Source of the DNA: Bdellovibrio svalbardensis
GTDB taxonomy: Bacteria > Bdellovibrionota > Bdellovibrionia > Bdellovibrionales > Bdellovibrionaceae
Length of the DNA: 64,000 nt
Reading direction: 5' to 3'
NCBI RefSeq assembly: GCF_029531655.1
Contig: NZ_JANRMI010000003.1
Coordinates: 372,001 to 436,000 of the forward strand
Shown: piece after piece, positions 53,109 to 58,784 of the stretch
Layout: each line of letters starts with the position of its first letter
Position numbering within the stretch: the first letter of the stretch is position 1
The notes under the pieces: model-generated
Databases searched by the model: none
What the model saw: only the letters and a program-made list of their open reading frames with translations
Told to the model about the DNA's origin: nothing
Made by a program: the position numbers and the translations under genes

Positions 53109-54080
53109 ATGAAGAAGTCACCGTCTTTCAAAAAGTATGTGTCCCTTTCGTTGATCGTCCACGTTTTGGTATTGGGAGGACTCTTCCTTTTTGGAGAGAG
53201 CGAATTATTAAAGCCTAAAGAGCAAAGCGTGAGCATCGACCTTCTTACGCCTGAAGACCTTGCCAAAATGGCAGCGTTAGAAAAACTTCAGGAAAAAAGA
53301 CAGGCCGAGCGCCCAATGAATCAAATCGTTGAGCAGAATGAAAATTCTGTGAACGAAAAAGAGCCCGTGGATGCACGATTCCTCAGCGCTAAGAACCAAC
53401 AGGTCACCAAGCAAACTGTTGCCGTGGACAAAGGCGAATTTCAAAACTTGAAAAAAGCCGCCAAGCCAAGATCAGGTCCCAAAGGAGACGGCAAAGTTAA
53501 AGCCGAGGCCAAAGAGGACGTGAAGTCGCGCGAAGAAAAGGTGGCAAAGGATCTGTTTAAAAGCTTCGATCCTAGCGCCGCTTTGGAGAGACAGAAACAA
53601 CGCGATCAAGCTGCGAACGAAGCCGGCCAAGGCCTAGGTCGTGGTGATGGCTCTGAAGTTGCCAAAGACGGTTCGGATGCGAGTAAAACGAACGACTATA
53701 TTAAAGACGTCGAGAACGGACTTGAAACCATGCTTAATACACGTGAGTTCAAGTACTACTCTTACTACAATCGTATTCGCCGTCAGCTTTCCCAACACTG
53801 GGAAAGCCGCGTGCGCGAAAAGCTGACCAAGATGTTCAAAGAAGGTCGTTCTCCAGCCTCCACGGCAGGTCAGGACCGCGTGACAAAATTGATGATCGTC
53901 TTGAATGACAAAGGAACCCTCGTGCGTGTTCAAGTGCTGATGGATTCCGGCGTTCATGATCTCGATGATGCCGCTGTCGAAGCCTTCCGTGCTGCTGCTC
54001 CTTTCCCAAATCCTCCGAAAGGAATTATTGAAGGAGACGGAACAGTGAAAATTCGCTGGGACTTCGTTCTAGAAAGCTAA
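53109..54080 (+). CDS. TonB-like periplasm-spanning protein
   Basis: A 323-residue protein. One N-terminal membrane helix (about 11-32, YVSLSLIVHVLVLGGLFLFG), a long charged Lys/Glu/Ala-rich spacer (about 50-200), and a C-terminal TonB-type domain (about 210-320): YYNRIRRQLSQHWESRV, LMIVLNDKGTLVRVQVLMDS, GVHDLDDAAVEAFRAAAPFP and IRWDFVL. This is the layout of TonB/TolA, which carry proton-driven force to the outer membrane, and of AgmX/GltJ-like motility proteins. No ExbB/ExbD gene is near. The lipid operon starts six bases after its stop, so it may be co-transcribed. A good ribosome binding site (GAGGGGTGAGG) precedes the ATG. Confidence 0.85.
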   Translation: MKKSPSFKKYVSLSLIVHVLVLGGLFLFGESELLKPKEQSVSIDLLTPEDLAKMAALEKLQEKRQAERPMNQIVEQNENSVNEKEPVDARFLSAKNQQVTKQTVAVDKGEFQNLKKAAKPRSGPKGDGKVKAEAKEDVKSREEKVAKDLFKSFDPSAALERQKQRDQAANEAGQGLGRGDGSEVAKDGSDASKTNDYIKDVENGLETMLNTREFKYYSYYNRIRRQLSQHWESRVREKLTKMFKEGRSPASTAGQDRVTKLMIVLNDKGTLVRVQVLMDSGVHDLDDAAVEAFRAAAPFPNPPKGIIEGDGTVKIRWDFVLES

Positions 54081-54086
54081 AATCAT

Positions 54087-54740
54087 ATGCTCTACTCCCT
54101 GAAAGCCAGATTTCAAAAACTGGCAACCTCATTTGCATTTTCAGGAATGACAGCCAACCATGCAAGCTTGCTGGGTTGGCTTTTTGTCTTTTTGTCGACG
54201 GCCGCTCTTTATTTCGGTCTGTCTAAATTAGATCCGGGAAATTTGAACTCGGCATGGCCCTTGTTGGCATTTCCAGCTCTAGTGCTCCTGCGATTGGTCT
54301 TTAACGCTTTAGACGGAATGATCGCCCGGGCAAACAATGCCGCCACTCCAATGGGTGAGGTTCTCAATGAGCTTGGCGATATTTGGGGCGATACCATTTG
54401 CTATGGGATTCTATTCTTCATTCCCTTCGTAAACGCCTTTCATCTCGCGCTCTTCCTTGTTTGCTGTTGGTTTGCAGAATTCACGGGACTACTGGGCCGC
54501 GCTCTGCCTGGTCATATTCGACGCCAAGAATCCGTTCTGGGTGGCAAGCCCGAACGCAGTCTTCTCTTCTGTGTATTTGCTGTGATTTGCTTCTTTGCGC
54601 CGATGACGGCGATGTATATCAATCAGTTTTTACTGGTATTGACGGTTCTGACTTTCCTTACTGGTATTTTAAGAATTTATAAAATTAGAAAACAAACACA
54701 AGGACTCAGCTACCAATCACACACTTTGTACGGCAGGTAA
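54087..54740 (+). CDS. CDP-alcohol phosphatidyltransferase-like membrane protein 1 (YnbA-like)
   Basis: A 217-residue protein with about six membrane helices. NALDGMIARANNAATPMGEV, then LNELGD, matches the CDP-alcohol phosphatidyltransferase signature D-x2-DG-x2-AR-x8-G-x3-D-x3-D. The first and third Asp are Asn here (N-x2-DG, G-x3-N-x3-D). As I remember, the E. coli YnbA/YnjF group has similar changes and ynbA sits beside a CdsA-like ynbB, as here, but this needs a check. Family members join an alcohol (glycerol-phosphate, serine, inositol) to a CDP-activated lipid. The loss of two metal-binding aspartates suggests a changed metal site or a different donor. First gene of the lipid operon; the next begins one base after its stop. 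Confidence 0.85.
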   Translation: MLYSLKARFQKLATSFAFSGMTANHASLLGWLFVFLSTAALYFGLSKLDPGNLNSAWPLLAFPALVLLRLVFNALDGMIARANNAATPMGEVLNELGDIWGDTICYGILFFIPFVNAFHLALFLVCCWFAEFTGLLGRALPGHIRRQESVLGGKPERSLLFCVFAVICFFAPMTAMYINQFLLVLTVLTFLTGILRIYKIRKQTQGLSYQSHTLYGR

Positions 54741-54741
54741 G

Positions 54742-55761
54742 ATGTTTCAGATCGTTTTCTTTGTGATCGCAAATGGGCTCGCCCTTTATCAGTTCGGAAG
54801 TACCGGCCAGACTTCGCTGCTGATGTTCTTTCTTATTTGTATTGGTCTTCTTTCTTTTTTCTCTGTCCTCATTACCAAACTTGAAAAAAAAGGACATAAA
54901 AGTGCTCACGAGCTGATGGCCAGAACCTTGACCTTTTGGTGGATGCTTTCTCTTTTTGGCATTGCTTTAGTGCTGCATCCTGCGGTCCTAGCCCTCTTGC
55001 TCTGTGCTGGAAGTTTATTATCCCTGGCCGAATACCACAGCCTGGTTTTTCCAAACGAAAAGTCTTTAAAGAAAATCATCGAAGATCGCTACTTCTTGTT
55101 CCCGGCTCTGGGTTGCATGATCAACTACCTGCTATTGTATTCAGGCCTGGAGCATGAATTCCTCGGCGTCAGCGCAACCTTCCTGGGTGTGCTCATTCCC
55201 ATTTTCTATGTGATGCAGAATCAGACCGATGGCCCCGCCCGCAGTCTTTCTGCAGTGACTTTGGGATATAGTTTTTTTGCAGTGCTATTGCCATTAGCCT
55301 TCGCTTTATATCGCATGGAAGCCCACGCCTTTCTGCTTGTCGTCTTCCTGACTGAAATTCGCGATCTGGTGTCTTATTGGATTGGCAAAGCCTTCTCTAA
55401 AACTCCGGTGAACTCTTCAATGTGGAGCCAACTGGTTCATAAAAAAGTAGCTGCCAATGTCAGCCCGCAAAAAACCTGGTGGGTGGGAATTGTCAGCACA
55501 ATCGTTCTTTTACTTATTGGACTGCCCTTGAGCTTCAGCGTCCTTCATTTGGATAATATCGGCTTGACCAAGTTGATGCTTGTTATTGTGGCGATTGGAA
55601 TCCTTGGACTCTTTGGCGATTTGGCGTTCTCATTAATCAAACGTATTCACGGACAAAAAGATTCTGGCACTTGGTTACCGGGAGGATCTGGCATCATTGA
55701 TCGTATTGATGCTTTGGTTTTCACTATTCCGGTCGCATATTTTCTAATTAAGTTTTTATAA
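54742..55761 (+). CDS. CdsA-like phosphatidate cytidylyltransferase (YnbB-like)
   Basis: A 339-residue inner-membrane protein with about nine helices. Near the C-terminus LFGDLAFSLIKRIHGQKDSG, then TWLPGGSGIIDRIDA, matches the CdsA signature S-x-x-K-R-x4-K-D-x-G...P-G-H-G-G-x-x-D-R-x-D, with the His replaced by Gly. It would make a CDP-activated lipid from CTP and a lipid phosphate. Housekeeping CdsA is probably elsewhere; this one lies between two CDP-alcohol transferase-like genes and therefore likely makes the donor for them, an inference from gene order. Confidence 0.87.
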   Translation: MFQIVFFVIANGLALYQFGSTGQTSLLMFFLICIGLLSFFSVLITKLEKKGHKSAHELMARTLTFWWMLSLFGIALVLHPAVLALLLCAGSLLSLAEYHSLVFPNEKSLKKIIEDRYFLFPALGCMINYLLLYSGLEHEFLGVSATFLGVLIPIFYVMQNQTDGPARSLSAVTLGYSFFAVLLPLAFALYRMEAHAFLLVVFLTEIRDLVSYWIGKAFSKTPVNSSMWSQLVHKKVAANVSPQKTWWVGIVSTIVLLLIGLPLSFSVLHLDNIGLTKLMLVIVAIGILGLFGDLAFSLIKRIHGQKDSGTWLPGGSGIIDRIDALVFTIPVAYFLIKFL

Positions 55762-55772
55762 AAGGATTCATC

Positions 55773-56411
55773 ATGGATATCGGCTTGTACCTTTTAAAGT
55801 ATCCTTTTCGCAAAGTAATTGGTTTCCTTCTGCCAGCTTGTGAAAATGTCGACCCCAATAAAATCAGCTATGCCCTCATGCCGGTCGGCATATTGATGGC
55901 GGCGGTTTATTACTACGCCATGACTGGCGGACCTGATTTTCTATTTATTGTCGGCGGCCTTCTGGGGCTGGTGCGTATGGTGGTGGCCACGCTGGATGGC
56001 TTGGTTGCCGTTCACTACAAAAAATCAACTGTGCTTGGAGACATCCTCAATCGCATCACTCCTGAGCTTTGCGACATGATTTTAATTCCCACTTTAGTCA
56101 TCACGAAAGGACTTTATCCATTAGGAGCATTTGTTCTTTTGTTTGCGTGGGCCGTTCCATTCTTTGGACTCTTTGGTGCACCCTCAGGTTTGGCCGTGCA
56201 AAGTGTTGGACCGGTAGGACAAACAGATCGCCTGGCGGCACTCATGCTTTGCTCGCTTTTCCAGTTTTTTAGTATTCGCTTTAATTGGGGCTTGGACTTT
56301 ATTCTTTATTTCTTCTATTGGGTGATTATCGGCGGGACCATCACTCTGATGATTCGCTTCACTCGTGTCTATAAAGAGGCTGCAAAGAAAGATCGAGGTC
56401 AGACATCATGA
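55773..56411 (+). CDS. CDP-alcohol phosphatidyltransferase-like membrane protein 2, degenerate
   Basis: A 212-residue protein with about six membrane helices. ATLDGLVAVHYKKSTVLGDI, then LNRITPELCD, lies where the CDP-alcohol transferase signature should be. It keeps the central DG and the G-x3-N-type spacing but has lost the A-R pair (A-V) and the first Asp (A). It shares with gene 1 the 'LNE/LNR' pattern and the final Asp. It may be a non-catalytic partner or use a different chemistry. AAAGGATT precedes the ATG, and its stop overlaps the start of the aminotransferase-SDR gene (ATGA). Confidence 0.75.
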   Translation: MDIGLYLLKYPFRKVIGFLLPACENVDPNKISYALMPVGILMAAVYYYAMTGGPDFLFIVGGLLGLVRMVVATLDGLVAVHYKKSTVLGDILNRITPELCDMILIPTLVITKGLYPLGAFVLLFAWAVPFFGLFGAPSGLAVQSVGPVGQTDRLAALMLCSLFQFFSIRFNWGLDFILYFFYWVIIGGTITLMIRFTRVYKEAAKKDRGQTS

Positions 56412-58375
56412 CCGAATTAAAACTCCTCGAATTTCGCAAAGGTCTGCCTTTTTTGCAGGGGCAATGCTTCCTCAACTATGCTGCCACCTGCCCGGTGCCC
56501 ACGTCGAGCATCAAAGTCATGCAAGACGAAATCGGCCTGATGCAAGAGCCTTTGGGAAAACACTTCTATCAAAGCTTAAATAAAGTCGAAATGATCCGCA
56601 AAGAACTCGCACGCTTTCTGGGAGCTCATGCGGGCGAGATCGCCTTCGTACAAAACACCTCGAGCGCGGTTAGCACCATCGCCCTGGCTTTGAACCTACA
56701 ATCTGGCGACAAAGTGCTGGTCCCCGACAATGAATTCCCCTCCAACTATTACCCTTGGAAGAATCTTGAGCGCTTCGGTGTTGAACTGGTTCCCTTCTCG
56801 ATCAAAAAAGATCAAACCATCACTGACGCTCTTTCGGGATTAGATCTTAATAACGTCAAAGTAATCAGCGTGAGTGCGGTGAGTTTTGAAACCGGCAAAC
56901 GCATTGATCTGAAAGAGTTCGCCGACTTCTGTCGTAGAAACAAAGTCTATTCTTGTGTCGATGCCATTCAAGCCATCGGCAACACTCCCATCAACTGTCG
57001 GGAGATGGGCTTTGACTTTCTCGCTTCCGGTTCCCAGAAATGGCTGTTGGGCTCTGTGGGTTGTGGCTTCATCTATGCCCGCACAGAACTTCTCGAAACT
57101 TTATTTGTCCCGATGGTAGGATGGACCAGCCATCGTTATCCTGAATACTTCGATCTGACCAAGCTTGAGTTTTCCAATGAGATGACCCGCTTTGAACCCG
57201 GCCTGCCCAACTATGTTCCTATTTTGGGAATGGGAGAGTCTTTACGCCTGATCAATGATTTCGGCATCGATAAAGTTCACGCGCAGATTCAGGGCCATCT
57301 TCGCTTTCTTAATGAAAAGCTCACGGCCCTCAATCTCGAACTTTTAACTGGAGAAAAAGATCTGACCGCTGGGATTCTTTGTTTTAGAATTCCGCAGAAG
57401 GTCGATCACCGCAAAGTTCACGAGTTCTTTGAAAAGAAAAAGATTTCCGTCACTGTTCGTGGCGATTACGTTCGCGTCTCGCCGCACTTCTTCACTTTGC
57501 ATTCGGAGCTGGAGTTCTTTGTAAAGTCCGTGGCAGAACTCATCGAGAAACCTTTGCCACAGGCGCACACAGTTACAGCCAAGTCCGCGGTCTCAACATC
57601 TCTTCAAGAGCCAGTCATCATCAATGGCGCCACAGGAAACCTTGGTATGTTGGTAGCAAAACAATTTTTGGCTCATGATCAGGCCATTTTCCTGCTTGGT
57701 CGCAACGAGCCTAAGATGACAGCCTTCCTGCATAATCTCTCTGCGAAGGAAAAAGCACTGATTGCCGGATCGGCATTGGTGGACTTTACCTCTGAAGGAT
57801 GGCTGCAGAAATTGAAATCGCAAATGCCGGCCATTAAATATTCAGGTCTTATCAACGCCTCTGGCGGCCTGACAGTCGACTTGCTAGAAAATCAAAATGA
57901 AAAACAGATTCGCGAGATTTTTGAAGTGCAATTCTTTGCCCCTCTTCAATTAATTCAGACTTACCTGAAAGAATGGAAGAGCAATTCTCCGCTGGGAGTT
58001 TTAAACATTCTGTCTTCGAGTGGTCGCTGCGGCTATCCTTTGCTGAGCACCTACGCCTCATCACACGCCGCCTTGTGGACTTTGACCGAATCCTTGCAGC
58101 GTGAGCAAGCAGAGCATGTGCCTTTCATGACCTACGTTGCTCAAAGCCAGCACTCCCCTTTACAAAAGGATATGGGCCGTACATCTTTGCGCTACTATCA
58201 AATCGGCAAATCCTTTGATTATGCGATTCCTGAAGACGTTGCCATCGACGTGGTAAATCAGTTCTTCGAAGGAGAATCACACAAAGCGGATTTTAATTTG
58301 AAACTCAAGCTTTGGATCAATGCCATTGCCCCAGATTTTTTCAGCAAACAAATTGCAAAAGCCTGGCGCCGCTAA
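56408..58375 (+). CDS. Fusion of class V aminotransferase and SDR domains
   Basis: A 655-residue cytosolic protein. Residues 1-380 form a class V (SufS/isopenicillin-epimerase-like) PLP enzyme: FLNYAATCPVP, VQNTSSAVSTIALAL, SCVDAIQAIG (Asp185), ASGSQKW with the PLP lysine Lys211, and VRVSPHFF. Residues 400-655 form an SDR: INGATGNLGMLVAKQF for the cofactor, INASGG, ILSSSGR and YASSH where Y-x-x-x-K is expected (Lys replaced by His553). I know of no characterised fusion of this kind. In the lipid operon it could make an amino-alcohol headgroup or modify one. It is the last gene and overlaps gene 3 by four bases. Confidence 0.88.
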   Translation: MTELKLLEFRKGLPFLQGQCFLNYAATCPVPTSSIKVMQDEIGLMQEPLGKHFYQSLNKVEMIRKELARFLGAHAGEIAFVQNTSSAVSTIALALNLQSGDKVLVPDNEFPSNYYPWKNLERFGVELVPFSIKKDQTITDALSGLDLNNVKVISVSAVSFETGKRIDLKEFADFCRRNKVYSCVDAIQAIGNTPINCREMGFDFLASGSQKWLLGSVGCGFIYARTELLETLFVPMVGWTSHRYPEYFDLTKLEFSNEMTRFEPGLPNYVPILGMGESLRLINDFGIDKVHAQIQGHLRFLNEKLTALNLELLTGEKDLTAGILCFRIPQKVDHRKVHEFFEKKKISVTVRGDYVRVSPHFFTLHSELEFFVKSVAELIEKPLPQAHTVTAKSAVSTSLQEPVIINGATGNLGMLVAKQFLAHDQAIFLLGRNEPKMTAFLHNLSAKEKALIAGSALVDFTSEGWLQKLKSQMPAIKYSGLINASGGLTVDLLENQNEKQIREIFEVQFFAPLQLIQTYLKEWKSNSPLGVLNILSSSGRCGYPLLSTYASSHAALWTLTESLQREQAEHVPFMTYVAQSQHSPLQKDMGRTSLRYYQIGKSFDYAIPEDVAIDVVNQFFEGESHKADFNLKLKLWINAIAPDFFSKQIAKAWRR

Positions 58376-58784
58376 AACTCATGGCGTGGGCTAAGCCAAT
58401 TTGCGATGAAACCATGCGACACCGGCGCCGAAAGTAGTTGTGACCTTACCCCCATTTTTAGTACCACCACTTTGCATAGTGGAGCCTAGAGGATGGCCCT
58501 CACCTTTCTTTTAGACATCACCATTTATGTGTAACTCAAAGCCCATTTGCAGCTTACTGTCTAAACTATAAACACCTCAGTTACCTGAAAACCCTTTATA
58601 TTTGATATCTTAGGCGCCTTTCTTGGCGCCTTCTTTGTAATAACCACTTCAACTGGGCTGGCAAAATATGTTAACTGTTTGGTTAATTATTTCGCTAACT
58701 ATTTACAAAACAAATCTGTGGAGCCGGTGCGAAAGCCTTTAAGATGGCAAACATCGAAAACGCTTTTAACCAAAGGATGAATGT
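58376..58784. other. Intergenic region with repeat remnant, hairpin and operator
   Basis: Bases 58408-58478 match 24388-24478 (ACACCGGCGCCGAAAGTA identical). GGCGCC-TTTCTT-GGCGCC followed by TTCTTT (58613-58636) is a likely terminator of the lipid operon, though 240 bases after its end. Bases 58671-58712 hold operator A. No gene. Confidence 0.6.
58671..58712 (+). promoter_or_regulatory. Operator A: TTAAC-N6-GTTAA plus AACTATTTACAAAACA
   Basis: TTAACTGTTTGGTTAA (58671-58686) is an inverted repeat with six-base spacer. AACTATTTACAAAACA (58697-58712) follows at exactly the distance seen in operator B (62030-62071). The two sites agree at 31 of 42 positions. About 40 bases further is TTTAAGATGG, similar to TATAAATGG behind operator B. 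The site starts 114 bases before the lipoprotein gene at 58785. Confidence 0.72.

Follow-up and report, generated by a model that had tools for sequence, protein, structure and literature searches.

The window analysed here, a 64,000-nucleotide stretch of a Bdellovibrio svalbardensis contig (NZ_JANRMI010000003.1, positions 372,001 to 436,000), carries at its positions 54087-58375 a cassette of four genes, labelled W1 to W4. W1 and W3 are related to the cytidine diphosphate (CDP)-alcohol phosphotransferases (CDP-APs) and W2 to CdsA-type cytidylyltransferases, and W4 is a fusion of a pyridoxal phosphate (PLP) enzyme with a short-chain dehydrogenase/reductase (SDR). The explanation that we favour, tentatively and with slightly less than even confidence, is that the cassette is a mobile, dedicated pathway to one accessory phospholipid or phospho-glycolipid, in which W1 would be the catalytic transferase, W3 its partner or an altered enzyme, and W4 the protein that provides for the headgroup. 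The literature library searched held nothing on the whole four-gene cluster and no lipid or enzyme data for the locus.

Distribution and transfer of the cassette

The order W1-W2-W3-W4, with the fusion intact, is found in six genomes of two phyla. The preliminary description of this DNA had named a failure to find the four genes together in any other genome as a refutation of its proposal; this refutation failed, as the set occurs in two further Bdellovibrio genomes (G068 and G111) and three metagenome-assembled genomes (MAGs) of Eremiobacterota. W3 orthologues are present in three of 24 Bdellovibrio genomes and in three of the 149 genomes of the Eremiobacterota phylum, and the full-length W4 fusion in three of 291 genomes sampled from the window's phylum. 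In a W4 profile scan of 84,980 species, the complete fusion turned up in the G111 contig, a Bdellovibrionaceae MAG, and in three other genomes, two of them titled Eremiobacterota or EREM and one simply "bacterium", all three of which are also returned by the phylum-wide search; since the scan relied on two short peptide patterns, further copies may exist. None of the plasmids searched carried the fusion or an orthologue of W3, the matches there being confined to distant YnbA types and single PLP proteins, and nothing was found in viral contigs.

Pairwise identities give one and the same relatedness for all four proteins, with the window and G068 copies (about 80% identical) on one side and G111 grouped with the Eremiobacterota loci on the other, as (G111, (L070, (L071, L074))), and the trees of W1 and W3 agree. 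The G111 copy is 48-71% identical to those of Eremiobacterota and 34-61% identical to that of the window. As a Bdellovibrio copy is thus closer to another phylum than to its congener, the cassette is co-inherited and appears to have moved horizontally, as a unit, between the predatory Bdellovibrio and the unrelated, little-studied Eremiobacterota. In G111 it lies at a different genomic place and has an extra ynbB-like gene directly upstream (L027:6497-7546), which gives that locus two cytidylyltransferases and two transferases. The flanking genes differ among the copies, so that the four genes constitute the whole unit.

Between the window and G068, nonsynonymous divergence (dN) is 0.13-0.17, and synonymous divergence (dS) is 1.29 for W1 and saturated for W2-W4; for two neighbouring genes compared in the same way, dN is 0.07 and 0.11. 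These rates show that the cassette is under purifying selection and strong constraint. With dN well below dS, and with order and fusion kept in six genomes of two phyla, the arrangement is not a product of chance.

The four genes are closely packed, as the preliminary description had stated and the open reading frames bear out: a single base separates W1 from W2 and 11 bases separate W2 from W3, and W3 overlaps W4 by 4 bases (Table 1). The TonB-like gene upstream occupies the same place in genomes of the genus that have no cassette; it therefore marks the insertion point and lies outside the cassette. Across Bdellovibrio species, the gene content of the interval just downstream of this gene varies (window 53109-54080; L097-L100), and the interval is likely an insertion spot. 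One cassette-free genome, which we take to be that of B. bacteriovorus HD100, lacks both W3 and the fusion; downstream of its tonB lie a transporter-like gene and a gene for 938 residues, and relatives of the latter are downstream of tonB in the other species read.

Table 1. Features of the cassette and its immediate surroundings, in window coordinates.
Feature	Position	Strand	Evidence
W1, YnbA-type CDP-alcohol phosphotransferase, 217 residues	54087..54740	+	Pfam PF01066 (CDP-OH_P_transf) 4.9e-8; alignment with YnbA proteins; six orthologues
W2, YnbB/CdsA-type cytidylyltransferase, 339 residues	54742..55761	+	Pfam PF01148 (CTP_transf_1) 1.8e-31
W3, divergent protein of putative CDP-alcohol phosphotransferase fold, 212 residues	55773..56411	+	NCBIfam archaetidylinositol-phosphate synthase 9.9e-13; BLAST to YnbA types
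W4, fusion of class-V PLP enzyme and SDR, 655 residues	56408..58375	+	Pfam Aminotran_5 4.3e-50, adh_short 2.4e-17
W4 PLP domain, residues ~1-385	56408..57560	+	VIA Z 31.2 to 1elq, root-mean-square deviation 2.3, 310 residues; alignment
W4 SDR domain, residues ~399-655	57602..58372	+	GATGNLG at 57626; Y549 at 58052; H553 at 58064
TonB-like gene, 6 bases upstream of W1	53109..54080	+	
Terminator-like stem 3' of W4, 7 pairs (6 G-C), T-rich tail	58612..58631	+	Such sites no commoner here than in shuffles

Active sites of the four proteins

The CDP-AP signature, D1xxD2G1xxAR...G2xxxD3xxxD4, comprises eight residues, of which W1, a clear homologue of the family, has six; D1 is replaced by N73 and D3 by N94, giving the motif N73-xx-D76-G-xx-AR...G-xxx-N94-xxx-D98-xxx-D102. 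In structures of phosphatidylinositol-phosphate (PIP) synthases, metal 1 is bound by D1, D2 and D3 and metal 2 by D3 and D4, the last of which is presumed to act as the base (PMC6506517), with the D4 change D93N nearly abolishing the activity of MtPIPS (PMC4634129). D1 and D3 are absent from all 18 YnbA-type proteins aligned (W1, W3 and those of Citrobacter and Shinella among them); D3 is invariably Asn, D1 is Asn in all except W3, and D2 is retained throughout, as is the Asp that follows D4 by four residues. The N/N change being common to YnbA-like proteins, it is a trait of the subfamily and not peculiar to this locus, and W1 belongs to this subfamily by homology, by Asn at D1 and D3, by D2 and the Asp beyond D4, and by its adjoining YnbB-type gene. 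The canonical PgsA and PssA of the window genome keep all four aspartates. YnbA-type transferases are present in many bacteria, and we know of no product for them.

The arginine pair of MtPIPS (R155, R195) that binds the phosphate of inositol phosphate (PMC4634129) aligns with invariant residues in all 18 proteins, R157/R196 in W1 and R153/R195 in W3. In the PDB, both W1 and the YnbA profile match PIP synthases best, and the best NCBIfam match of both W1 and W3 is archaetidylinositol-phosphate (AIP) synthase. Given this relationship in sequence and fold to the PIP and AIP synthases (such as MtPIPS/PgsA1 and RsPIPS), W1 could be such a synthase and the product a PIP-like lipid, but this is very improbable: the matches score 42-54 bits where the cut-off is 180, D1 and D3 are gone from W1 and W3 and D4 from W3, and neither protein has the counterpart of MtPIPS R94, which adjoins D4 and is critical for inositol phosphate (PMC6506517). 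No match to inositol-1-phosphate synthase (Ino1) was found in the six genomes, a weak negative, as the Corynebacterium control gave no match either.

W3 misses the Pfam CDP-OH model and is closest to YnbA-type proteins, although it has Ala at D1. Its signature is altered at D1 (A72), D3 (N93), D4 (P97) and AR (AV), and D75, D101, R153 and R195 are retained; the changes D1 to A, D3 to N, D4 to P and AR to AV or AT recur in all six copies, which leaves only D2 of the four aspartates. The altered aspartates of W1 and W3 had been recognised in the preliminary description, and the alignment confirms them; the loss of D4 from W3, the Lys-to-His change in the SDR of W4 and the TonB-like gene had escaped that description. 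At long range, with the window copy compared with G111 or Eremiobacterota, W3 shows the highest conservation among the four proteins (52-61%). CDP-APs are dimers in which residues of the second chain lie near the active site (PMC6506517). Without three of the four signature aspartates, the base included, W3 is most likely a non-catalytic or differently catalytic partner.

In W2 the CdsA signature, KDx5PGHGGx2DRxD, is complete except that PGHGG reads PG[GSA][ST]G in the six copies (PGGSG in the window, at 55678-55692), so the changed signature histidine reported earlier is seen in the alignment as well. D293 and D323 are invariant in all six and align with the metal-binding dyad D219/D249 of TmCdsA (PMC7018664). 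The earlier statement that ynbA-ynbB is uncharacterised is outdated for ynbB, as YnbB makes CDP-diacylglycerol (CDP-DAG) in vitro and, in E. coli, can support the formation of MPIase but not the synthesis of phospholipids in bulk (PMC6362211, PMC7018664). The simplest reading, which is consistent with YnbB, is that W2 would supply CDP-DAG to W1. A link to MPIase through the signature histidine of W2 was dropped, since the E. coli cdsA8 mutation is Y207H and not the PGHGG histidine (PMC6362211).

MPIase also suggests another product. CdsA makes GlcNAc-PP-DAG from CDP-DAG and GlcNAc-1-P (PMC6362211, PMC7018664), the first step towards MPIase, and the YnbA class might likewise form a pyrophosphate link to a sugar-1-phosphate, with W4 tailoring an amino or keto sugar. 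A phosphate oxygen acting as the nucleophile would need no general base, which would account for Asn at D1 and D3 in YnbA and for the loss of D4 from every W3, and the acceptor-phosphate arginines are invariant; the support of MPIase by YnbB points the same way. However, published work assigns the transfer of GlcNAc-1-P to CdsA/YnbB and not to YnbA, neither the cassette nor what its flanks have in common includes a recognised glycosyltransferase, and R356 of W4 is better suited to an amino acid than to a sugar, so that we regard this route as unlikely.

The PLP half of W4 has the class V fold (Z 31.2 to 1elq) and aligns over its full length with the cystine C-S lyase C-DES and with SufS, its closest folds; the Schiff-base lysine, K211, is invariant and R356 is kept. 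The corresponding arginine of the C-DES/SufS family binds carboxylate. Unlike these enzymes, W4 has no desulfurase catalytic-Cys loop (a gap in alignments to the SufS family), has Phe110 at the position of the PLP-stacking His, and is fused to an SDR. PADLOC gave only generic DndA/SspA desulfurase matches, to the PLP half. The SDR half resembles classical SDRs (PRK09072, FabG-type) in its Rossmann-type sequence and active-site Ser and Tyr, but in all six copies it has YxxxH (Y549, H553) where SDRs in the PDB have the catalytic YxxxK, and GxxGxxG for GxxxGxG. Co-inheritance is what would place W4 in the pathway; among the stand-alone PLP relatives (~30% identity) whose surroundings were read, none adjoins reference lipid genes.

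The preliminary description had proposed that the PLP-SDR protein prepares or modifies an amino alcohol for an amino-phospholipid such as phosphatidylthreonine, and the alpha-carboxylate-type arginine of W4 would fit. We consider this quite unlikely: serine-synthase models match the transferases far more weakly than AIP/PIP-synthase models, and threonine as an acceptor requires no PLP-SDR enzyme. The distribution of the cassette also speaks against phosphatidylthreonine, which was rejected as the natural product, for the cassette is present in only a few Bdellovibrio genomes and the putative HD100 genome has other genes at the site. A phosphonate route was likewise set aside, as matches to the phosphoenolpyruvate mutase family occur in most control genomes and are hence uninformative.

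Related modules

The E. coli-type ynbABCD module encodes a CDP-OH transferase (ynbA), a CdsA paralogue (ynbB), a hydrolase-methyltransferase (ynbC) and a PAP2/dual-specificity phosphatase (ynbD), and a PlsC-like acyltransferase frequently accompanies it. Homology links W1 to YnbA and W2 to YnbB (with the G068 copies, E 1e-19 and 4e-25, respectively), the genes are adjacent, and the N/N change in the transferase is the same. The cassette differs in having no ynbC, ynbD or plsC (ynbC and ynbD are absent beside all six copies), and in having a second, divergent YnbA type (W3), the PLP-SDR fusion and a W2 without PGHGG. These sequence features set it apart as a variant of its own among modules of the YnbAB kind.

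Other variants were encountered. The window genome has a second ynbA-ynbB pair (G000:C1:710240-711924; L029:7240-8924), followed by an EamA/small-transporter-like gene of 118 residues and accompanied by a divergent SDR gene with YxxxK intact, and similar pairs occur in other Bdellovibrio genomes (L030, L032, L034). In other Bdellovibrionales families (L033:3444-7768, L036, L037), ynbA-ynbB-ynbC is followed by genes for 164 and ~211 residues, which in L033 match SnoaL-like and phospholipid-methyltransferase (PEMT) models and represent another module variant. Among the Proteobacteria, plasmids of Shinella, Citrobacter, Burkholderia and Pseudomonas carry ynbAB modules with a PlsC-like acyltransferase (L005, L006, L007, L079); the first three also carry hydrolase-methyltransferase and PAP2/dual-specificity phosphatase genes, and the module of Pseudomonas sp. 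FeN3W adjoins TerD genes. A fourth CTP_transf_1 protein of the window genome (G000:C6:6020-7734; L064) is paired with a PlsC-like acyltransferase and has no adjoining CDP-alcohol transferase.

With three CTP_transf_1 proteins besides W2 and another ynbAB pair in the window genome, the cassette might be an auxiliary copy for general CDP-DAG/MPIase supply, whose W3 and W4 would have drifted into regulatory or unrelated functions, and altered residues are indeed found in every protein except the PLP half. That all four genes have stayed together in two phyla under strong constraint makes such drift improbable.

A predicted accessory lipid pathway

In the pathway that we favour, W2 would convert phosphatidic acid and cytidine triphosphate to CDP-DAG, from which W1, with its changed metal site, would transfer the phosphatidyl group to a polar acceptor that bears a phosphate or a comparable acid group and would be held by R157/R196. 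W3 would contribute its predicted fold and its retained acceptor arginines, for example by forming a heterodimer with W1. The PLP half of W4 may convert an alpha-amino-acid-derived group, and the fused SDR may act on or hold the product, so that an amino-bearing headgroup would be supplied or finished. Because the canonical CdsA, PssA and PgsA of the window genome are intact, the cassette is an extra. Of the earlier proposal, the part that sees here a dedicated, CDP-activated module for a membrane lipid, related to ynbA-ynbB, has good support, and phosphatidylthreonine as its product is not supported.

Several observations weigh against this pathway. Four of the six copies come from MAGs or genomes so titled, one of them on a 5.3-kb contig. 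Every protein shows some departure from its catalytic or signature residues (confined, in W4, to the SDR half), so that chemistry outside the scheme is possible, and all of the reactions, the lipid product and the substrates of the PLP and SDR halves are predicted. A W3-only profile finds no CDP-AP structures in the PDB. The AlphaFold2 models, built on five sequences, are weak (pLDDT 56 and 62), that of W3 (pLDDT 56, pTM 0.55) having PgsA, PIPS and AF2299 as its best VIA matches (Z 8-10.7) and a Foldseek E of 0.011.

A bolder possibility, to which we assign a low likelihood, is that a transferase pair in which one subunit has neither the base nor the usual set of metal ligands represents a conserved pseudoenzyme completing an active partner, or else the base-free joining of a phosphate nucleophile, and that the cassette would make an undescribed class of lipid, finished by the PLP-SDR protein and passed between phyla as one unit. 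Ultimately, a unit this compact and self-contained, in which a "dead" transferase is conserved, offers a test case for heterodimeric or altered-metal-site CDP-alcohol transferases.

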